Below are positions 4 to 21,526 of a stretch of 64,000 bases of DNA, piece by piece; position 1 is the first letter of the stretch, and each line of letters begins with the position of its first letter. Source of the DNA: Cavenderia fasciculata (taxonomy: Eukaryota > Evosea > Eumycetozoa > Acytosteliales > Cavenderiaceae); assembly GCF_000203815.1 (NCBI RefSeq), contig NW_004457723.1:310001-374000 (forward strand), read 5' to 3'. The position numbers were made by a program, and so were the translations under genes. The notes under the pieces are model-generated. The model did no database searches. It saw nothing but the letters and a program-made list of their open reading frames with translations, and was not told the DNA's origin.

Positions 4-3000
4 ATGACAAACCCAGCTGTAAAAGTTGTTGGGGAAGGGATCAAGAAACAGACCTTTTACCTATTGGAATTTGATAGACATATCAAAGAACAAGAGGAAG
101 CTATAGTCAATCTTCAAACAAAATTTCCTCTCAACTCACAAGGTAGAAGACAAAATATCATCCAAGCTCGGAATGAGATTCAAGTCACCTTGAAGAAACT
201 GAATGTAGGACGAAAAGGGATCTCTTTGTGTTTGCAAGAATATACTCGTATTTCAAAAGCCTTGGCTTCCTTTATCGACCATTCACCTATCTCGAATGTC
301 ACATTTAACGATGTAGCCAAAGAAATCAAACTATTAGAGGAAAGACTTAGAAATTTTGCCCGTGGTAGAGATGGTTGTAAAGATCAACAAAAGAAAATAT
401 ATCTAAGTGCTAGGATTGCTATTATCACCCAATTGCTCAAATCTATTGATCTTGCTAAAAGATCCAGAGAGACCATCCCTAATCCATCTCCTTTATCCAA
501 ACCACCAGTTCACCAGTCACCAGACCTCAGTCGTACACAGCCACCATCAGTAGTTCAAGTTCCAGCACCTGTCCAAGTTCCAGTCCAAGTGCAATTTACT
601 CCTCGACCAATTTCAAATCAAGAAAAGGAAAAAGAAATAGTTAAAAAGATTGGAGACCTAGAGTTTTTTATGAAATCCACTAGAGATCATTTCAACTCTA
701 CCAAACAATCCATCAGTCAAGAGGATAGACCACAGATTCTAAAAGAGTACTCTACCAAACTTTCTGTCAAAACAAATGAAGTGAAAAAATTACAAGCAGA
801 GTTGTTGGTGCTTCGTGAAACTAGTTCACTTGTTAACAGCGAAGAGATAGATTATGTTAAATGTACACATAAAACTGTATGTATCAACTTACTTGCATAG
901 TTTACAAACTATTCTGAAACTAACAATATATCTTATTTATAATAGTATGGTCAAATAGTTGATATCTTTTTAAAATGTCGACCACAAAGATTAACAAAAT
1001 TGGCACATCATATTGATCATCAATCATCAATTATTGATAATAATGATAGAACACACGATCAGTATAATAGTTTTATTGTACCTTTGATGTTTGAAGAATT
1101 GAAAGAACAGATTGTTAGCAAGATTACTGATAGTGGTGCTACTGTGAATGGTCATGACGGTCTATTGAACCTATTCAAGATTCAGTCAGTTGCTACTAAA
1201 GTAAAATCACTTACTGCTGACAGTACTGGTATGTTACTAGATTTTAATTACAAGGCTGAATCAAGAGACAAGGATCTGTACAAAGAAGATTTAGTATTGC
1301 TTCAAATCAATGCAAAGCCAACACCGTTGTATGTATTTGCTAAAGTCATTTCGGCACCTCTACCAACCGGTAAATCAGATCAATCTTGTAGAGTCTACAT
1401 CATCGATGAAGAGACATTGGCACCTCACACTACAGAGTTTATCGAAGCTCTAGCCAACCTACGTAAAACTAAAACAGAGTTTTATGTATCAAAGGTTGCC
1501 AACCTCATCACATTTGAAAGAGAATTAAAATCAATTAAACAATTTACATCACATCGATTATCAAAACTAGTTCTATCACCAAGAACTTTTATAGAAGATA
1601 GAAAGAATATGATTGTTAAAAAACAATCATTTATTATTCCATCTCATCTCGACCTTGGTAATCTCAATCCATCACAATTATCTGCAATTCAAAAATCAAT
1701 GATTCAAGATGAATTAACTTTAATTCAAGGTAAATATATATTTATAGAAATATAGAAATATTTATTTATAATTATTATTTGTATTAATTATTTCTCTTTA
1801 TTTTAATTATTTTTAAAAGGACCACCTGGAACAGGTAAAACAACTATTATATTAAATTTATTAAGAATATTTCATTCAATACTCGGAGAAAAGGAAACTA
1901 TTTTAGTTTGTGCACCAAGTAATACAGCAGTTGATGAAGTTGGGTTGAGATTGTTGGATGATGGATTGGGTCTTGGGTCAGAGACACCTGACATTGTTCG
2001 TATTGGAAGATTAGAGGCAGTCAACAAAAAGGTTCATTCTATTTGTATCAACAAACACTCTAAATTCAAAGAAAAGAAGAGAATGATTAGAGAGGCTAGA
2101 ATATTGCTTACAACATTGTCTGGAGCTGCGTCAAAGATTTTAGATGCTAGTCCATCGGTCATTATTATCGACGAGTCTACTCAATCGTGTGAACCATCAA
2201 CATTGATCCCATTGTTGCTCAACCCAAACTCTAAAGTCATTTTAATTGGTGATCCAAAACAACTTCCACCAACTGTATTTTCAAAGATTTCGAGTAGACA
2301 TGGATACAATGTATCATTGTTTGAAAGATTATCAAACTATCTACCAGTTCATATGCTCGATACTCAATATCGTATGCATCCATCCATTTCAAAGTTCCCT
2401 TCACAACGTTTCTATCAATCGAAATTAAAGGATGGTGAAAATGTTGTCAAATACACCAACTCATTTTATAATAATGCAAAGTATGGACCAATCAATTTTT
2501 ATAATATTCCAGAGTCTCAAGAAGTATCAGAAAATGGTAATTCTTTAAAAAATATTTTAGAATCTAAATATGTTTTTGTTTTATTAAAAAAATTGGTAAG
2601 ACATATCAAAAACAAACAAATAATTTAATTAAATATTTATTTATTTATTTATTTATTAATTTATTTATTTTATTTCTTAGGTACAAGAATATCCAGAAGT
2701 TAAAAAAATGATTGTTGGTATTATTACACCATATAAATTACAAAAGAAAGAATTGTTGGAAGCAAGAGGAGCATTTAATGAAAAGATGGATGTAGTTGTG
2801 AATACCGTCGATGGGTTCCAAGGTGCTGAAAAGGATATTATTATATTTTCGTGTGTTAGAAACAAGAGAATCGGATTCCTTAGTGATATTCGTCGTATCA
2901 ATGTCGGTATTACTCGTGCAAGAAAAGCAATCTATGTAATTGGAAATCGTACGCTATTGGGTCAAGATCCAACTTGGAATCAGTGATTGAAAAGGTTGTT

Positions 3001-4527
3001 GGTAAACAATTTATTATCAATTCTGGTGGCATCGATATTCTTCAAGAAGAAATTAGACAACACGATCTTAGACATCCAAATGGTTTAATCGTTAGTAATG
3101 GTAAATCAGATGAAGAAGAACTGGAAGTATTCTTTTCATCATCAAAAGATCAACCATTTGGTCATGGTGATGAAGATGATGAAAGTGATGGTGACGACAA
3201 TGAAACCGAAGCAGACAAGTTGGTTAATAGTATTTCAAATTTATCTATTAATCCAACCGCCGCCAACTATGTCGAATTATTGATAAAACAAGTGGAAATT
3301 GATATTAGTCATTACAACAAGATTAAAGCAGATAGAAACTCTGAAACAAAGGTACAAGCTAAAAGTGCCTATTCAAGAGTTAAAAATAATCTTGGACAAT
3401 TGGTTGGTCATCAAAAGATCAATATTTCATCCTCTCAGCCACAACTAGATATCACCGATAATACAATCAATGGTTTATTGTCAACTGCATTTACCGATAA
3501 AAAGTGTAGTGGTGAAACATTGTCAACAAAGAAATCTAGTTGGAATGATCTTTTAGAGTTGTTAAAGATTAATTTCCCAAAAGACAGTTTCGAGGCATAC
3601 GGGTCATTTGTAAATGGCATTCAATTGGAATCAAGTGACATTGATGTTTGTTTCAAGACCTCGTTTGATACCTCTGACCCTGTCCGTCGAGTAGATCTAA
3701 TGAAGAGTGTGGCTAGATGTCTTTTGGCTAAAAGGGATGATCAAGGTAACCGTGATTATCAATTGGTTCGATTATTAGATTCAATCAAAGTACCAATCAT
3801 TAAATTCACAGATTTGAAGCACCGTGTTTCGTATGACATGTGCTTTAACAATCGTTTGGCAATTGGTAACTCTTTATTGGTAAAATCGTACGCTGAAATT
3901 GACGAGAGAGCCAAACAACTCATGTTACTCGTCAAGTATTGGGCATCGAGAAAGGATATCAATGATGCTAGCGGTGGCACCCTTTCATCATATGCTTGGT
4001 TGAATATGGTTATATTCTATCTTCAAACTGTTCAACCTCCCGTACTCCCATCGTTGCACTCTAATGTCTATTCAAAATCAGATGGTCAGTTGGTACAAAG
4101 TAAAGTGGATGGTTGGAAGTTTGTTGATCATCGTCACACTGGATTCGTCAGCCAAAACAACAAAACATTATTCCAACTATTCTATGGTTTCTTTAATTTC
4201 TATTGCAAGTTTGATTTTAAGGATCAATTGATTTGCATTCGTTTAGGTAAACCAACGAGCAATCGAATGGCATCACAATCCTATATGGAACAAAACGATC
4301 AAAGTAAAATTTGCATTGAAGATCCATTCAACACTTCCTCCAACCCAGGTTCATCTGTTCAATCAACCTCATTTAATATTATTATTTTTGAATTCATGTC
4401 AATGAAATCAAAATTACAACAACTAGCAGTATCAACCAATAATCAAAAGATTATTCATCAACAAGATTTTGATCATCTCTTTTCAAAATCCTTAAAATTA
4501 AATGAACTTTATAAAAAATCAAAATAA
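4..4527 (+). CDS. Upf1-like SF1 helicase fused to nucleotidyltransferase, copy 1 (frame break inside)
   Basis: Exons 4-876, 946-1729, 1820-2595 and 2681-4527; the three introns sit exactly where the paralogue at 16566-21526 has its first three. Order of parts: a basic helical N-terminus of about 290 residues; an SF1 helicase with GPPGTGKT (1820-1842), IIIDESTQSCEPS (about 2164), GDPKQLPPT (about 2250), QYRMHPS (about 2364), VDGFQGAEKD (about 2807) and GITRARKA (about 2912); an acidic linker; a nucleotidyltransferase with YGSFVNG and SSDIDVCF (3599-3652) and YDMCFNN; and a PAP-associated domain ending in CIEDPF. Such transferases (Trf4/Cid1/TUTase) add A or U to RNA 3' ends. The helicase lacks the Upf1 CH zinc domain. 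Compared with copy 2, 10 nt net are missing after the DPTW codons near 2978, so the helicase frame stops at 2986 and the transferase lies in another frame (about 2977-4527). The true start may lie outside the window. Substrate is unknown; the fusion suggests RNA unwinding coupled to tailing. Confidence 0.8.
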
Positions 4528-6389: not shown

Positions 6390-7531
6390 TATTCTACCAA
6401 CAACAACAACATTAATATTGGATGGTGAATTCAACAGTCCTCTCAGAGGATTAATTCCACCAACACTTTTAAAATTAAAGCTATTGGGAAACTTTAATCA
6501 ACCAATCACATGGGGTGATATTCCAGATAGTGTTGAAACATTGATATTCGGATCATCATTTAATAGTGACATCGAATCATTTCCAAGGTCATTAAAACAT
6601 TTAGTTTTAGGAAAATCATTCAATCAATCGTTGAGATCATTTTCTATGCCTATAAATGCTACAATACATATAACCACCTCTAATTGGAACCATACTCTTT
6701 CCAATGTATTTGTCAATTGGAGTGATCAAGCATTGAAAAGGATGAATGTCTACCAGTACTGCCAAGATTCCAAACAGACTACCATCAACTCATTTATAAA
6801 AAAACAAACCTATTTTCATCTTAACAATCGGTGAGCAATCTTATGGAATTGGTAGAGGTATGGTATCTGGTCAAACAAATTTGTAACAATGATTCTAACC
6901 GGAAGAGTTTTAATATTTTTTCAAATATAGGAGCGATAATATATTACAGTGGAAGAATAATAACATCAAATTATCAATCAATCTAGAAGTTGTCAAGTGA
7001 TATCATATGTTAAAGCATCAATCTATCCACATTTATTTTGTCAAATAGATAAATCAAAATTTGAATCAATCAATCAACACTTTGTCGAATACCAACCCGA
7101 CTCTAAATACCCCCTAAAGGAAATGGAGAAACTATTTGAATTGGATGAAGACAATATTCATCAAGTGTTTGAACATAATGATCAATATCTAAATATTAGA
7201 TTGATTTACACCAAAACATCTGTGCTGTCAAAGAAGAAAAAGGTTTTCTCTCGTCTTTCAAAAAGCAATAACAATAAAACAAAGAAATAAATGGCTGATA
7301 TATTAAACAGGTTTCGTGTTCAGAACACCACCTAAATGATAAGTACATGATGATCAAATACTAAATTCTAAAGTACATTTAAATGTTTTTATATTATTGT
7401 ATATTTAATAATTCATTTCAATAAATTAATTAATTACACTTTTAAAAAGATTTGTTGTTTAAACAATGACGAGTCGTCACCAGTCTTGTTTTATTATTAA
7501 ACAATTTAGTAGACACCAGAAGTTGGTGAAT
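6390..7531 (+). pseudogene. Decayed duplicate of the 3' end of the FNIP-kinase gene
   Basis: This block is a diverged copy of 11200-12366. It starts inside the exon that encodes ILDGEFNSPL and covers the FNIP-like part (6418-6834), the last exon (about 6990-7235), the ATGGCTGATA-type 3' flank, and then the last few codons of the neighbouring reverse-strand secreted gene (7480-7531). The reading frame is broken: it leaves frame after SFIKK near 6810, and the stretch corresponding to 11738-11815 has lost bases. It lacks a kinase and a promoter, so it is not a functional gene. The outer breakpoint lies against the hAT fragment that follows. Two homologous blocks and the shared noncoding flanks show a segmental duplication rather than a retrocopy, because intron sequence is kept. 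Confidence 0.85.
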
Positions 7532-7808
7532 GATAAACCCAAACTTATCAATATGGATATATTATCTTGGTGGCACAGTCAGAAAGAAAGTATGCCCGTC
7601 CTCTATGACTTGGTACAAAAGTATATGTGCATTCCATCGTCATCAGCTCCTTGTGAGCGTATATTTTCAAAAGCAGGTACAATGTGCACATCATTACGTA
7701 ACAGAATGTCCCGTTATTGCAGTCGAAGATGTCATGTACGTAGACGTCAATCACTCATATATTTCTTCTGAGAAGAAAAATCAACAAAAACGTTCTGATA
7801 ATAATTAA
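7532..7808 (+). mobile_element. hAT transposase C-terminal fragment
   Basis: Encodes the hAT dimerisation region: DILSWWHSQK, then PVLYDLVQKYMCIPSSSA, then CERIFSKAG and LRNRMS. These are the classic WW, PSSS..CER.FS and NR motifs at the end of hAT transposases. After RNRMS the match continues in the next frame (PVIAVEDVMYVDVNHSYIS), so one frameshift is present. The catalytic part, the zinc finger and both terminal inverted repeats are missing, so this is a dead fragment of about 270 bp. It abuts the breakpoint of the 6390-7531 duplication, which suggests that the rearrangement and the transposon are linked. Confidence 0.85.
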
Positions 7809-8031: not shown

Positions 8032-11000
8032 ATGGCTGATACAGCAAACGATATCTCTGACACCCAACAAACTTCCTCAGATACAATCGAGGACAAAATC
8101 AATCCAATATTACTATCATTGACTTTTGCTAATGATTATAATCAATTTCTAACAGTTGGAGTATTATCATCATCATTACAATCATTGGTGTTTGGTGATG
8201 AATATAATCAACCGCTAACAGTTGGAGTATTACCATCATCATTACAATCATTGGTGTTTGGTGATGAATATAATCAACGTCTATCAGTTGGAGTATTACC
8301 ATCATCATTACAATCATTGGTGTTTGGTGTTGGATATAATCAACGTCTATCAGTTGGAGTATTACCATCATCATTACAATCATTGAGGTTTGGTAGTTAC
8401 TATAATCAACCACTATCAGTTGGAGTATTACCAACATCATTACAATCATTGATGTTTGGTCATTATTATAATCAACCACTATCAGTTGGAGTATTACCAT
8501 CATCATTACAATCATTGGTGTTTGGTGATGATTACAATCAACCACTATCAGTTGGAGAATTACCATCATCATTACAATCATTGGTGTTTGGTGATGAATA
8601 TAATCAACCACTATCAGTTGGAGTATTACCATCATCATTACAATCATTGGTGTTTGGTTGGAACTATTACCAACCTCTATCAGTTGGAGTATTACCATCA
8701 TCATTACAATCATTGGTGTTTGGTGATGATTACAATCAACCACTATCAGTTGGAGTATTACCATCATCATTACAATCATTGAAGTTTGGTTTGGAATATA
8801 ATCAACCACTATCAGTTGGAGTATTACCAACATCATTACAATCATTGGAGTTTGGTTGGAACTATTACCAACCTCTATCAGTTGGAGTATTACCATCATC
8901 ATTAAAATCATTGAGTTTTAGTGGTAAATATAATCAACCACTACCAATTAGAGTATTACCACCATCGTTACAATCATTGGGATTTAGTTGGAGATATAAT
9001 CAACCTCTATCAGTTGGAGAATTACCATCATCATTACAATCATTGGTGTTTGGTTGGAACTATTACCAACCTCTATCAGTTGGAGAATTACCATCATCAT
9101 TACAATCATTGGTGTTTGGTTATAAATATAATCAACCTCTATCAGTTGGAGTATTACCATCATCATTACAATCATTGATGTTTGGTCATGATTATAATCA
9201 ACCACTATCAGTTGGAGTATTACCATCATCATTACAATCATTGGTGTTTGGTTACTACTATAATCAACATATATCAGTTGGAGTATTACCATCATCATTA
9301 CAATCATTGGTGTTTGGTGATGATTACAATCAACCACTATCAGTTGGAGTATTACCTTCATCATTACAATCATTGGTGTTTGGTTATAAATATAATCAAC
9401 CTATATCAGTTGGAGTATTACCATCATCATTACAATCATTGGTGTTTGGTGATGATTACAATCAACCACTATCAGTTGGAGTATTACCATCATCATTACA
9501 ATCATTGGTGTTTGGTGATGATTATAATCAACCTCTATCAGTTGGAGTATTACCAACATCATTACAATCATTGGTGTTTGGTTATAAATATAATCAACCT
9601 CTATCAGTTGGAGTATTACCAACATCACTACAATCATTAGAGTTTGGTAGTTCCTATAATCAACGCCTATCAGTTGGAGTATTACCAACATCACTACAAT
9701 CATTGTTATTTGGTCACATAAATATCGAAATTTCGCCAACAAGAGTTTTAGTTGATTTCAAACAAACGATTGCCAACAGAAACTTTATTAAACTAGGGTC
9801 GCTTGGAGTAATCAAACTGCCAAATATCAAAATTCTTCCAAAAATAACGTCATGGTACAATGGGCAGAACAACATTCTAACACTCACAACATTCAACCCA
9901 AATCCCAACTCTATCAATTACGACCCCAACTATTTAATGGTATATCCCATCAAATCCACAGATTATGTTACAGTCAACAACCACAAATATTTCAAATTAC
10001 ACCCTTTTCCATACTCTGACAACCAAGTAATCTTTGTTATGAGCGAATCCGGTGTATTAGTATGTATTAAAAATCCGAAACAAAAATATAATAATTACTT
10101 TGATGTTTAACCTATCTTTTAGTTTGTTTACAAAGAAATAGATTACTCCTCCAATCAATCAATCTACAACAAAGTACAATTTGAAATCACAACGATGAAA
10201 TTATTCATCAGTGACTCTATGTTTGTACAATACAAAGATCACCAAGATGACAGTGATTTAAAAAAGATATATATTTTGACACATTTCTGTGAAGGTGGTG
10301 ATTTAGAACAATTATTTCAATCAATGACTAAATGGTATGTCATTCTAATTATTAGAAGTTTACCATTGATTGACCATATTTAACACGAACAACTCTTTTT
10401 AGGAATATCTCTCAAAAACAACAACCTCTTCCAGAATATAAATATATTCCAGAATCAGAAATATGGGTCTATATTCGACGATTATTCCTCATACTTGAAA
10501 AACTATCACAACACAATCTTGCACATCTTGATATTAAACCACTCAATCTTTTCATTGGAAATGATGGTGAAATCGTTCTTGGTGATTTTGGTTGTTGTCA
10601 CACTTACGTTGATCATAATACATCAGTTTCTAATGCCAAGATTGATAAAGTCACAAATAATAATCAAGAAAATAATGACTCCAATCAAACAACAGCACAA
10701 TATGCTATTAAGATAGCCAAAACACTTGCCTCTCGTGGAACAAAAGGATATTACTCACCAGTATGTACATATTTTTATGTTTATAGATTAATCATGCTAG
10801 AATAACATTTTTTTTTAAATGATAACTGTATAATAGGAATCAAAACAAAAGAAATATTACCCCTCAAGTGATATATATTCAGTTGGTTCAACTATTTTAC
10901 ATTTACTTTCTTGGTAAGATTTTTTATTTGACAAACAACTTTATTGACAACCAACTTACCATTTCACAGTCACCCAGATGATATCGGTCATAGAATTGAA

Positions 11001-12035
11001 TTTGTCAACAACCACAAAAATAACAACTTTGATACGAACCATATTAAAATATCAACAGATAGATACTCTGAATATTTAATTAATTTTGTCAAGAATCTAT
11101 TAATCGAAACACCTGATGATCGTCTTTCATTGGATGATTTGGTTGGAGAAATAGTCAACGAACACACACAAAGAATCACATCATTTTTAATCGATCGACG
11201 ACAAATTCTAACAAACACAACAACATTAATATTGGATGGTGAATTCAACAGTCCCCTCGAAGGATTACTTCCACCAACACTGTTAAAATTAAAGTTGTTG
11301 GGAAACTTTAATCAACCAATCACATGGGGTGATATTCCAGATAGTGTTGAAACATTGATATTCGGATCATCATTTAATAGTGACATTGTATCATTTCCAA
11401 GGTCATTAAAACATTTAGTTTTAGGAAAATCATTCAATCAATCGTTGGGATCATTTTCTATGCCTACAATACATATAACCACCTCTAATTGGAACCATAC
11501 TCTGTCCAATGTATTTGTCAATTGGAGTGATCAAGCATTGAAAAGTATAAATGTCTACCACTGCCAAGATTCCGAACAGACTACCATCAACTCATTTATA
11601 AAAAACAAACCTAATTTCATCTTAACAATCGGTGAGCAATCTTATGGAATTGGTGATATCAAGAGGTATGTTATCTGGTCATACAAAATCAACAATGATG
11701 CTAACCGGAAGAATTATAATATTTTTTTCAAATATAGGAGCGATAATATACTAGAGTGGAAGAATAATAACATCAAATTATCAATCAATCTAGAAGATGT
11801 CAAAGTGATATCATATGTTCAAGCATCAATCTATCCACATTTATTTTGTCAAATCGGTAGAACAGAATTTGAATCAATCAACCAACACTTTGTCGAATGC
11901 CAACCCGACTCTGAATACCCCCTAAAGAAAATGGAGAAACTATTTGAATTGGATGAAGATGATATTCATCAAGTGTTTGAACATAATCAATATCTAAATA
12001 TTAGATTGATTTACAACAAAACATCTGTTGATTGA
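8032..12035 (+). CDS. FNIP-repeat protein kinase (FNIP-kinase-FNIP), copy A
   Basis: Exons 8032-10059, 10123-10334, 10403-10760, 10837-10913, 10970-11665 and 11738-12035 give about 1,222 residues; each junction keeps phase. The first exon holds 24 FNIP repeats of 22 residues (consensus SLVFGDDYNQPLSVGVLPSS). A protein kinase domain follows: VYKEI with the beta-3 Lys, THFCEGGDL at the hinge, HLDIKPLN as catalytic loop, GDFGCC as the DFG site, YYSPES for the APE region and SSDIYSVGS for helix F. The HRD motif reads HLD, so it is a non-RD kinase, and no clear glycine loop is seen. After the kinase come two or three degenerate FNIP-like units (FNSPLEGLLPP, FNQPITWGDIP) and a C-terminal domain unique to this family. 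The last intron (72 nt) has no stop and could be retained. FNIP kinases are a dictyostelid speciality; substrate unknown. Copy B is at 54636-58062. Confidence 0.85.
8116..9699 (+). repeat. 66-bp coding minisatellite, 24 units
   Basis: Twenty-four tandem 66-bp units encode the 22-residue FNIP repeats. Units are highly alike at the DNA level, with the core CAACCTCTATCAGTTGGAGT repeated nearly unchanged, and vary mainly in the codons after TTTGGT (DD, DE, YK, WNY, HY). Such low divergence points to recent unit gain by slippage or unequal exchange. Long open frames on the opposite strand here are by-products of the periodic sequence. Confidence 0.95.
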
Positions 12036-16565: not shown

Positions 16566-19500
16566 ATGGCGTCGGTAGTGGACAAAGAAATAGATCGTCT
16601 TGGTCAGGTGATGCACAGTTGCCAAACTCGGATCAGAGACATTAGAGCTCAATACAACGATGCCATCAGAAAAGCACAGAAACAACAACCACAGACCTCT
16701 GCAACAACCAAGCTCGTTCAAGATCTAGAGATTAGAAAGAAAGCTTTGTTAGATGCTGAAACATTAAAGAACAGAGAATGCATTAGACAAAGAAATATAT
16801 TGATCAACACTCCTGTTAAGAAAACAACTCCTCCTCCTCCTCCTCCTCCTCTTGTTAAGAAACCAACTCCTCCTGTTGTAAAAGCTGTTCCACTTCCACC
16901 GGTGGTTCAACCTCCACCACCACAACATAGTAACCTTCAAACACTATTATCAAGATCTCAGACGATTGAAGCAAAGATATTGCAATTAAAGTCGGAAAGA
17001 AAGAAAATTCCATCCAAGAGTCCAAGTGATACGGATGAAAAGAAGGCAATGCTCAAAAGCAAGAGAAAGGCTGTTTCAAAACAACTGAGAAACCATAGAG
17101 CTGATTTAAGGGATTTAACAGTTCAAATTGAAAAGTTAAAATCAACTACCATTGTCCAGTCACCTGTTGCTGCTGCTAAACCTGCACCGGCACCGGCAAC
17201 AGCTCTCAAACACATGCCAACATTACCACCTGCCAAGCCAGCAGCAGCAGCAGTCGTCACAGTGGCCAAACCCATACCAACATTACCACCTTCCAAACCA
17301 GCAGCAGCAGCAGCAGCCGTCACAGTTGTTGCTCCTCTTCCACTCACAACTCAACTTCAAAAAGTAAACAATGAAATGAGAAATATCTATCAACAGATTA
17401 GAACGGCTCAACTGGCATCGGCCAATGCAATCGCTCAACTCAAAACAAATTTGGCCAATGTACCTCAATCCGATCCAAACCGAAACAAACTCAGAAGAGA
17501 TTTGGAGGAAAGGATAAGGGTAATCCGTCGTGATACACAAGACCAACTTTCCAAATTATATGATGAAAAGAACTACCTCAAAAAAACAAAAGCAATTTTA
17601 AAAAGAGGTCCAAGTTCTGTTGGAGGATCAACCCCTACTAGTGTTCCACTTGCTCCTTATAGACCATCACAAAAACAAATAGATTATATTAATTGTATTG
17701 GTAAAAATGTATGTATATTTTTCAAAAAAAACAAACAAATATCTCTATCAATTATTTTTTTTTTTCTTAACTCTCTCTCTCTCTCTTTGTCTCTTGATTT
17801 ATTTAATTATTTAGGCAGGACAAATTATAGATTTAATTTTATTATGCCAACCAAAGAGAATAGGATTTTTGTCACATTATCTTGTACCTTTTAGTTACAA
17901 GGATGAAAGAACACATGGAGAATATATACAAGATATGGTACCTTTGATGTTTGAAGAATTACGTACTCAAATCACACAGGAATGTGAAGAAAATGGTGTA
18001 GAGATTAGAGATAATGGTGAGATGGATTATATAAGAATTAAGACAATGCCAATCTCTATTGACATTTTGGCTGAAACACGTGACAATGTTGAAGGAGTTT
18101 GTTTAAAATTTTGTCAACGACTCAACGATCCCGATCAGGCATTGTTTCAATCGGATCTCATGTTACTTGTAATTAAAGAAGGTGTAAAGAGACCAGTTCA
18201 TGTGTTTGGGTTGGTGGACAGTGCAGTCACTGATAGAAAGAACCCATCCTTAAAGAGATACTCTATACGTATCTTGGAGGATCAAACCAACTACCCTCAT
18301 ACAACCGAGTTTATCGATGCATTGTATGACATTAAAAAGAGTAAAGGAAAGGTACATATTGCTCGTATATCCAACCTTACAACCTTTCAAAGAGAATACA
18401 ATGCCATTCAAAGGTTTATATCACATTCATTGGGTCCCCTTATCCTCACACCCGAACAATACCTTGAAAACAAAAAACCTTCACCTAGTTATGCAATCCC
18501 AAAACGATTACAAGATAAATTACCTTTAAATCCTTCTCAAATGATTGCAATCAAACAATGTATGATTCAAGATGAATTAACTTTAATTCAAGGTATGTCA
18601 AACAAAAAAAAAAAAGATAGTTATTAAATATTAATATTATTTTTTATTTATTTTAATAGGACCACCTGGAACAGGTAAAACAACAACTATTCTTAGTTTA
18701 CTTGGTATATATCATAGTATATTGCCTCCACAATGCCAAATATTGGTTTGTGCGCCAAGTAATACTGCAGTTGATGAAATTGGTATTAGATTTTTGCGCG
18801 ATGGATTAGTTTCTGAAGAAGAGGAAAATGAAAGACCTGGTGCAGTTCGTTTGGGAAGTAGATTGGAAGTGATCAATGAAAAGTTACATCCAATTTGTAC
18901 AAGCAGGATTGATGATCTAAAGAGAAGAATCATGATGATTCGAAGTGCCAGAATCGTCCTTTCAACATTATCTGGATCTGCATCAACCATGCTAGCAAAG
19001 GCTGGGTGTAGACCATCGATCATTATTGTAGACGAGTCTACTCAATCGTGTGAACCATCAACTTTGATTCCACTGCTCAGAAATTTCAGATCAAAGGTTA
19101 TTTTAATTGGTGATCCAAAACAACTTCCACCAACTGTATTCTCTGATATTTCTAGTAGATTCAATTATGATGTGTCGTTGTTTGAAAGATTATCAAATTA
19201 TCTTCCCGTTCATATGCTCGATACACAATATCGTATGCATCCATCCATTTCAAAGTTCCCATCCGATCAATTCTATCAAGCAAAATTAAAGGATGGTGAA
19301 AATGTAGTCAAATACAGTAATTCATTTTACAATGATAAAAAGTATGGACCAATTAATTTTTATCATATTCCAGATTCTCAAGAAGATACAACTATTGGTA
19401 AATCTATCAAAAATAATTTGGAAATTAAATTGGTTTATGTTTTATTAAAAAAATTGGTATGCAAACAAAATCAAACAAACAAACAACAAAGTTAAATATT

Positions 19501-21526
19501 TAATTATTTATTTATTTATTTATTTATTTTTATTTTGATTTCTTAGGTACAAGAATATCCAGAAGTTAAAAAAATGAGTGTTGGTATTATTACACCATAT
19601 AAATTACAAAAGAAAGAATTGTTGGAAGCAAAAGGAGCATTTAATGAAAAGATGGATGTTGTTGTAAATACCGTCGATGGCTTCCAAGGTGCTGAAAAGG
19701 ATATTATTATATTCTCTTGTGTAAGAAACAAAAAGATTGGATTCCTTCGTGATACTCGTCGTATCAATGTCGGTATTACTCGTGCGAGAAGAGCTATCTA
19801 TGTGGTTGGTTATTCTTCACTTTTGGAACAAGATCCAAATTGGGGTGCCTACCTTCGTTTTATCAAGGACAGGATTGGAAAATATGTTACAATCGATTCC
19901 AAAGGTATCGAGGTACTCCAAGAACAAGTTAGACAACATGATCTTAGACATCCAGAAGGTCTAATCGTTGCCACTAAAGAGGAATTTGAAGAAATTAAAG
20001 AATTTTATGATTCCAACGATGATAGAATATTCCATGATATTAGTGATGGTGAAGATGATCACGATGATGATGAAGATGATGAAGATGAAAAAGATGAAGA
20101 GGACCAACAACAAACCACCATTCAAGAATCTTCACTCTTTGCATCATTGTTAAGTTCATTCAAATCATTGACATTATTTGCAAGTAATAGTGATGATGAC
20201 AACTCTATTTCGACACGTAATGCAGAGATGGTTAAAGTGGTTGAAGAAAATCTTATAAAGTATCATGGATTACAAGATATTAGATTGACACCAGAGACCA
20301 AACTTCAATTAAAGGAAACCAGAAGAAACATTTGGAAAAAGTTAAGAGAGTTGATCAAGAAGCAAAATCTAGACACTACCAAAACAAATTCAACATTTAA
20401 TCCTTTCCTTGGTGTTGAAGATCATAGACATATGAATCATTACTTGGTAATGTTGTGTCACGAAAAGAGATGTAAAAATGTTTTTGTCAAGAATACCAGT
20501 TGGATGGCTCTCCAACTTTATTGTGCCGCCTCATTCCCAGAATGTAATGTCAAACCATACGGATCATTTGTCAATGGTATTCAATTGGAATCAAGTGATC
20601 TTGATGTTTGCTTCTCTACAAGAGAAGATATGAAAACAGCTCAAGGTATTAAATTAATGTTAAGAGTTGCTATTTGTATTAAAAGATGTAAGTAAAAGTA
20701 AAAGTCAAACAAATGAAATAATATATTAACTTTCCATTCTTTTTCTTTTTTTTTTTTTAAGTCAAAACATTTTAAATTGGAGAAAATTATACAATTTTCA
20801 AGAGTACCAATTTTAAAGTTTACAGATACATTACATAATATATCATATGATATGTGTTTTAATAATAGATTAGCTATTGGTAATTCATTATTAATTCAAT
20901 CCTATGCGAATATGGATCCAAGAGCCAAACAACTCATGTTGCTTGTCAAGTATTGGTCATCGCAAAAGGATATCAATGATGCAAGTGTTGGTACACTTTC
21001 ATCATACAGTTGGTTGAATATGGTTGTTTTCTATTTACAAACCATTCAACCACCTGTTCTCCCATCGTTGCAACAAATAGACTCATCTACTCCACCCAAT
21101 AGGTTGGTTAGAAGTGTTGTTGATGGATGGAAATTTTTGGATCCAAAAATGACAGGATTCGACTCAAAGAATACAATGACAGTGTTTCAATTGTTGTATG
21201 GATTCTTTAGTTTTTATTCCAAGTTTAATTTCTCCAATTTGCTCATCTCTATTCGTTTGGGTAAACCAACCAACATTAGAATGGCATCAAAGGAATACTT
21301 GGATCATCATCATAAACGTCATATTTGCATCGAAGATCCATTTGAAACTAGTCATAATCCAGCAGCATCTGTTGGTCGGGTTGCATTTGATGTCATTGTC
21401 TATGAAATCATTGCAATGGAAACAAGATTAAAATCAATGTTGGGTCGTACTCCAATTAAAATTGAATATGATCATTTATTCTCCCAATCATCTTTGATGA
21501 AATTTTGTTCAAACAATAAGAAATAA
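16566..21526 (+). CDS. Upf1-like SF1 helicase fused to nucleotidyltransferase, copy 2
   Basis: Exons 16566-17708, 17815-18592, 18660-19456, 19547-20687 and 20762-21526, about 1,540 residues. Residues 1-380 are a charged coiled-coil region with Pro-rich and Ala-rich spacers. The helicase has all SF1 motifs: GPPGTGKTTT (about residue 641), IIVDESTQSCEPS, GDPKQLPPT, QYRMHPS, VDGFQGAEKD and GITRARRA. An Asp/Glu-rich linker (about 20040-20105) leads to a Trf4/Cid1-type transferase: PYGSFVNG with SSDLDVCF, third acidic residue in SYDMCFNN, and a PAP-associated domain (LVKYWSSQKD, CIEDPF). The last junction is odd: the GTAAGT donor at 20688 leaves phase 1, but the only matching acceptor (20761) opens a phase-0 exon, so the spliced frame would break. 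Either a small indel or a pseudogenising change is present. Expected role: RNA unwinding plus 3' tailing in RNA decay or silencing (inference). Confidence 0.82.

Follow-up and report, generated by a model that had tools for sequence, protein, structure and literature searches.

Among the described systems that bring a helicase together with an RNA-tailing enzyme, the TRAMP complex (Trf4–Air–Mtr4) employs Mtr4, a superfamily 2 (SF2) helicase of 3′–5′ polarity. In the RNA-dependent RNA polymerase complex (RDRC) of fission yeast, comprising Hrr1, Cid12 and Rdp1, a helicase is paired with a non-canonical polymerase (PMC2965749). The gene that forms the subject of this report lies at positions 16566–21526, on the forward strand, of a 64,000-nucleotide stretch (hereafter the window, equivalent to positions 310001–374000 of contig C7) of the 31-Mb genome of the dictyostelid Cavenderia fasciculata. 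It resembles both systems in its pairing of activities, but unlike TRAMP it specifies a helicase of superfamily 1B (SF1B) in one chain with its partner, while unlike RDRC, where the subunits are separate and the helicase is probably of a different branch, the fused polypeptide has no RNA-dependent RNA polymerase (RdRP). The interpretation argued for here, to which a probability of roughly 0.45 may be attached, is that this is a dictyostelid RNA 3′-tailing enzyme that arose when a duplicate of the SEN1 helicase was joined, once and long ago, to a terminal uridylyltransferase (TUTase), and that it works as a tracking carrier.

An earlier interpretation made from the DNA letters alone (the sequence-only reading) had proposed a covalent fusion of an SF1 helicase, via an acidic linker, with a nucleotidyltransferase (NTase) possessing an acidic triad and a PAP-associated domain, and in this respect it is upheld: all of the parts described were found in that order and on that strand, distributed over five exons, the four intervening introns all being of GT–AG type with GC contents of 0.10–0.21, as against 0.32–0.41 for the exons. 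The Pfam search proposed at the same time matched AAA_11 (4.8e-46), AAA_12 (3e-58) and PAP_assoc (2.4e-13) in the product, with the transferase recognised as MTPAP-like_central in both its first half (7.3e-10) and its second (6.3e-11). The resulting layout comprises a helicase of SEN1/senataxin type (with brace, stalk and barrel as well as the RecA domains), then the acidic linker, then a nucleotidyltransferase of the TUT4/7–URT1–Cid1 type (Table 1). The joint between the two halves falls within exon 4, a single open frame of 380 codons that runs from helicase motifs V and VI through the linker to GSFVNG...SSDLDVC, which carries the first two catalytic aspartates; none of 5000 first-order Markov sequences of the same composition was open across this length.

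Protein searches, with domains confirmed using Pfam, gave among the matches listed seven annotated proteins from five dictyostelid species in which a helicase is followed by a transferase. These are P0001 (which matches the present gene, and is named “Regulator of nonsense transcripts” in the NCBI annotation) and P0004 from C. fasciculata, P0003 from Heterostelium album PN500, P0047 from Dictyostelium purpureum, P0050 from Polysphondylium violaceum, and P0006 and P0046 from Acytostelium subglobosum, the last two having adjacent locus-tag numbers. The expectation that the order would be kept in relatives is therefore borne out by full-length annotated proteins of four other species, which also back the domain order of the C. 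fasciculata gene; acidic blocks, as judged by eye, occur at the equivalent place in six of the seven, that of Polysphondylium being weak. No fused protein of D. discoideum was among the matches listed in two of the protein searches (covering lengths of 0.55–1.75 of the query, the second having scored the 7991 candidates sharing most words and given the best 120 of 4047); a third search (query P0047, E ≤ 1e-60) listed three proteins and has no bearing on this absence. It may be for this reason that the fusion seems not to have been described before, no account of a fused helicase and tailing enzyme having appeared among the papers listed in searches of the open-licence literature.

As to the helicase half, the label given in the sequence-only reading, “Upf1/senataxin-type”, can be narrowed to its second part: on the evidence of trees and predicted structure this is a helicase of SEN1/senataxin type and not UPF1, an assignment that corrects the database name. 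In a tree of 25 rows the seven fused proteins form one clade (support 89/89) that is sister to dictyostelid SEN1 (joint support 86/89) and lies apart from plant MAA3, from dictyostelid MAA3-like proteins and from the C. fasciculata loci L020 and L022, which fall together and which we take, from their motifs, to be UPF1-like and IGHMBP2-like respectively. This was the second such tree; in the first (30 selected rows, made up of 24 proteins and six of the 18 AAA_12 matches from the organism's own genome) P0055, a Populus protein, grouped among the fused proteins in a clade of 8 rows (93/88), and was dropped on account of a 1306-residue cut-out and a branch length of 2.65, L027, L031, P0009 and P0012 also being left out. 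The fold predicted for exon 2 corresponds, in structure comparison, to the SEN1 brace, stalk and barrel, and trees and structure ranking together rule out a UPF1 identity. The CH domain, a feature of UPF1, had no Pfam match in the fused proteins, and for the helicase NCBIfam gave no match above cut-off, its IGHMBP2 family scoring 260.6–308.8 where 348.9 bits are required. Likeness to Sen1/senataxin extends to the RecA1–RecA2 motifs, the helicase motifs being mostly intact in six of the seven; the differences are the C-terminal transferase, the lack of any match to SEN1_N (PF12726) at E ≤ 0.001 in all seven (as also in the canonical protein P0052), and the loss of the prong, which is considered below.

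For the transferase half, earlier described as of Trf4/Cid1 type, the second of these names was the better choice, since among solved structures the closest are those of TUT7, TUT4 and URT1 (6.3e-45 to 1.7e-40), together with Cid1, rather than Trf4. The fused proteins share with these enzymes the GS...DxD...D triad, intact by alignment in all seven (and in two of the four related proteins that lack RecA domains), and PAP_assoc, but they are attached to a helicase and form a dictyostelid clade of their own: in an NTase tree of 35 rows, the seven fused and four RecA-less proteins group together with support of 100/99.7, and the branching order within the clade agrees with the dictyostelid species groups. 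This tree took in 19 of the 39 non-dictyostelid matches of the protein search, as well as two separate C. fasciculata loci, L041 and L042 (the latter missed by phmmer and entered as a hand join), which group with URT1/TUT. A histidine at the position that selects uridine triphosphate (UTP) is known to favour that nucleotide (PMC6053540, PMC7470959); it is present in the product of the present gene and in both Acytostelium proteins, and is replaced by Asn in Heterostelium, by Ser in the copy on C. fasciculata contig C18 and by Phe in Polysphondylium, with a gap in D. purpureum. Given this variation, uridylation is a fair prediction from sequence for the present gene product, but not one to be extended to the whole family.

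Since each half forms a single clade, the family is most simply explained by one ancient fusion that predates the radiation of the dictyostelids, with later duplications and losses. The fusion would apparently have been kept from before that radiation, and one figure legend of PMC11014262 gives the dictyostelid root an age of about 600 million years.

Relevant to what the fused motor might do is the SEN1 prong (subdomain 1C), the presence of which can be gauged from the distance between the RxG and TLS motifs. Pattern matching gave this distance for 16 of 20 proteins (the exceptions being two plant MAA3 proteins, one from Entamoeba and one eukprot protein); it amounts to 31–35 residues in all seven fused proteins, 122–125 in all eight measurable canonical Sen1 proteins and 65 in the MAA3-like protein of T. 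lacteum; the fused helicases thus lack about 90 residues that form the prong. Using phmmer, residues 345 and 352 of the query align to 1460 and 1556 of yeast Sen1, for which the distance is 123; deletion of the lower prong (1461–1554) would leave 29 residues and of the upper prong (1471–1538) 55, so that by length the fused proteins correspond to the former. In yeast the lower-prong deletion abolishes unwinding and termination but not RNA-dependent ATPase activity, and the mutant binds RNA with similar affinity and a smaller footprint (PMC5452015). The suggestion in the sequence-only reading that unwinding is coupled to tailing is accordingly doubtful, and the match to the yeast mutant favours an RNA-tracking carrier of a 3′-tailing enzyme over a TRAMP whose tailing is coupled to unwinding.

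Such a carrier might operate as follows. The SEN1-type core (brace, stalk, barrel and two RecA domains) would bind single-stranded RNA and, using ATP, move 5′–3′, that is, towards the 3′ end where tailing must occur. It would displace proteins but, without its prong, would neither open duplexes nor dismantle RNA polymerase II. In this way it may clear and scan single-stranded RNA and tag its 3′ end. The acidic linker would give the C-terminal transferase reach to that end, to which it would add uridines (the present gene product and both Acytostelium proteins) or other nucleotides (other copies), and the tail might then mark the RNA for decay or silencing. Translocation, its polarity, the type of tail, the targets and the outcome are all inferred for the fused enzyme.

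Table 1 Features of the fused helicase–transferase gene and of its paralogue, in window coordinates.
Feature	Position	Strand	Remarks
Exon 1: N-terminal extension	16566–17708	+	Charged/coiled-looking, Pro-Ala-rich; no Pfam domain
Exon 2: SEN1-type brace, stalk and β-barrel (subdomain 1B)	17815–18592	+	
Exon 3: RecA1 and beginning of RecA2	18660–19456	+	Walker A GPPGTGK at exon start; motif II DEST
Prong site (SEN1 subdomain 1C)	18848–18967	+	RxG-to-TLS 35 residues vs about 123; model shows only short helices
Exon 4: remaining RecA2, acidic linker, first half of NTase	19547–20687	+	Motifs V and VI
Acidic linker block	20045–20104	+	Read from sequence
NTase motif GS...DxD	20561–20605	+	Aspartate codons 20597–20599, 20603–20605
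Intron 4	20688–20761	+	74 bases, GTAAGT...AAG; one-base phase mismatch of flanking exons
Exon 5: NTase palm (second half), PAP_assoc domain, stop	20762–21526	+	
Third catalytic aspartate (NISYDMC)	20849–20851	+	
Histidine at UTP-selecting position (IEDPFETSHN)	21353–21355	+	Aligned to TUT7, TUT4 and URT1 histidine
Paralogous helicase–NTase gene	4–4527	+	Exons by eye about 4–876, 946–1729, 1820–2595, 2681–4527

The C. fasciculata genome contains six closely related NTase loci: the gene described above, the paralogue at window 4–4527, a near-identical copy of the latter on C18 (L039), and three copies, two of them in L038 and the third in L040, from which the RecA domains are missing while the N-terminal part and NTase remain. 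In the window paralogue there is a frameshift near 2970, between helicase and NTase, where it is 10 bases shorter than the main gene; the frameshift is common to the C18 copy, 90 bases at the joint being identical. Both lie in a segmental duplication (5.7 kb, 96.7%) that matches L039 2150–7828 on C18 with the end of L038 and window 1–5035 on C7. The annotated C18 model, P0004, bridges the frameshift in its own copy, and when transferred to the window it implies an intron at 2936–2994; this 59-base segment is read here as a frameshift instead, because its GC content of 0.39 is unlike the 0.08–0.23 found for all remaining introns in both window genes. In the RecA-less paralogue at L038 2867–4288 the third catalytic aspartate is, by alignment, replaced by Asn, and this copy is perhaps inactive. 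The NCBI model P0002 (DFA_06957) holds two tandem NTase genes, seemingly neighbours wrongly joined. A D. purpureum model, P0162 (DICPUDRAFT_85060), also has the N-terminal part and NTase without RecA domains, but it is given little weight since it is partial and continues into a ComC-like gene, apparently through a similar error. Elsewhere in the window are a fragment of a hAT transposase dimerisation domain (7466–7768; Pfam 1.1e-15), a long FNIP-repeat protein (8032–10107; Pfam 3.2e-196) and a second FNIP protein (10944–12032).

That wrongly joined models such as P0002 and P0162 exist raises the question of whether the fusion itself might be an artefact of gene modelling or assembly, but the chance of this is negligible: the joint sits within one open exon and the arrangement recurs in five species with concordant trees for both halves, which together rule it out. 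Much more serious, if still the lesser prospect, is that the fused gene is decaying in C. fasciculata, its halves no longer making one protein while the transferase reading frames are retained (a view compatible with the proposed model elsewhere). At the exon 4/5 junction the donor (20688) and the acceptor (20762) do not agree, the former leaving phase 1 and the latter opening in phase 0, so that the third aspartate and PAP_assoc are linked to the rest only across a one-base discrepancy. P0001, compared with the DNA, bridges this using a 19-base “intron” at 20646–20664, which is too short to be credible and also deletes residues that by eye resemble the Heterostelium protein; an alternative in-phase acceptor opening exon 5 at 20805 (found by eye) is disfavoured, as it would delete the strand preceding the third aspartate. 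The mismatch is either a one-base assembly error or the mark of a broken copy. Decay would also fit the identical frameshift of the C7 and C18 copies, the three RecA-less copies and one more NTase fragment, which is interrupted by a stop at C18:457142. Against it, an assembly error of a single base is possible, the reading frame is kept at the remaining exon joins and the gene is otherwise open across all five exons, the helicase branch is short (0.098), and ratios of nonsynonymous to synonymous substitution (dN/dS) are below 0.5 in both halves (0.21–0.48 over 15 pairs of C. fasciculata NTase paralogues; 0.34 and 0.24 for two helicase pieces compared with paralogues). The phase mismatch and the frameshift between the halves in the other two copies do, however, make it doubtful that the joined protein is produced in C. 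fasciculata, and this counts against the tracking-carrier model. So too do several other observations: in three copies from C. fasciculata and a single D. purpureum model the transferase is kept without RecA domains, so that the motor is dispensable for some copies; the D. purpureum helicase has DD for DE and a changed motif III, which is changed also in Acytostelium P0046; the UTP histidine occurs in just three of the seven fused and none of the four RecA-less proteins; support for the helicase clade is moderate (below the starred level), with long branches for Polysphondylium and D. purpureum; and the yeast upper-prong deletion still unwinds (PMC5452015), so that the stub retained in the fused proteins could matter.

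Opinions as to role must be more tentative still. The fused protein could be a one-chain version of the Hrr1 and Cid12 pairing within RDRC, acting in RdRP-based transposon silencing, but this is rather unlikely: the helicase half is sister to SEN1 and apart from C. fasciculata L027, which we take from its features to be of the ZNFX1/Hrr1-like branch, so that any such role would be convergent, and D. discoideum, with working RNA interference, showed no fused protein among the matches listed. Tandem copies and turnover would nevertheless suit a genome-defence family, and in Dictyostelia RdRPs seem expanded and small RNAs made by RrpC appear to curb transposons (PMC11014262). About equally doubtful is a general surveillance of messenger or non-coding RNA, in which deadenylated or stalled RNAs would be uridylated for decay and the motor would remove bound proteins. 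The nearest solved relatives of the transferase, TUT7, TUT4 and URT1, speak for this, as does the independent pairing of tailing with decay in other eukaryotes, where a similar transferase is fused to a Dis3-like RNB nuclease (P0008, P0010); but patchy distribution and rapid copy turnover would be unusual for a housekeeping decay factor, and C. fasciculata has L041 and L042 as separate loci of the URT1/TUT group. To our knowledge nothing links the fused family to the A-tailed microRNA intermediates of D. discoideum. The short A-tails in question were described on intermediates of one microRNA (PMC6161686).

Fusion of a tailing enzyme to an RNA-handling one has probably occurred on more than one occasion, given the RNB-nuclease fusions P0008 and P0010 and two metagenomic proteins, P0009 and P0012, which like the dictyostelid proteins combine a TUTase-type NTase and an SF1 helicase in one chain. 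The metagenomic pair differ in having the reverse order and a zinc-knuckle-like sequence between the two parts (Pfam zf-CCHC in P0012), whereas Pfam matched no zinc knuckle in any of the seven dictyostelid fusions; their helicase, on a long branch, and the NTase of P0009 fall outside the dictyostelid clades (first helicase tree and NTase tree), and on this evidence they are probably an independent fusion. The set with a Dis3-like RNB exonuclease, in which one chain would both tail and degrade RNA, comprises P0008 (metagenome), P0010 (Willaertia), P0011, P0043 and P0044, several being by name from Heterolobosea (Willaertia, Naegleria) or a percolomonad.

The dictyostelid fusion links the SEN1 helicase family to 3′-end tailing within one chain, and the loss of the prong yields a clean prediction from the yeast mutants, namely that the motor would track RNA without unwinding it. 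Tandem copies, RecA-less copies and variation at the residues of nucleotide choice point to an RNA-control family with fast turnover, and copy turnover and loss of parts are suggestive of genome defence. Taken to its full extent, and in that form improbable, the proposal would be that a prong-less Sen1, as an ATP-driven 5′–3′ tracker, delivers its linked transferase in a fast-evolving dictyostelid defence against transposon or viral transcripts, with individual copies shedding the motor or switching nucleotide.

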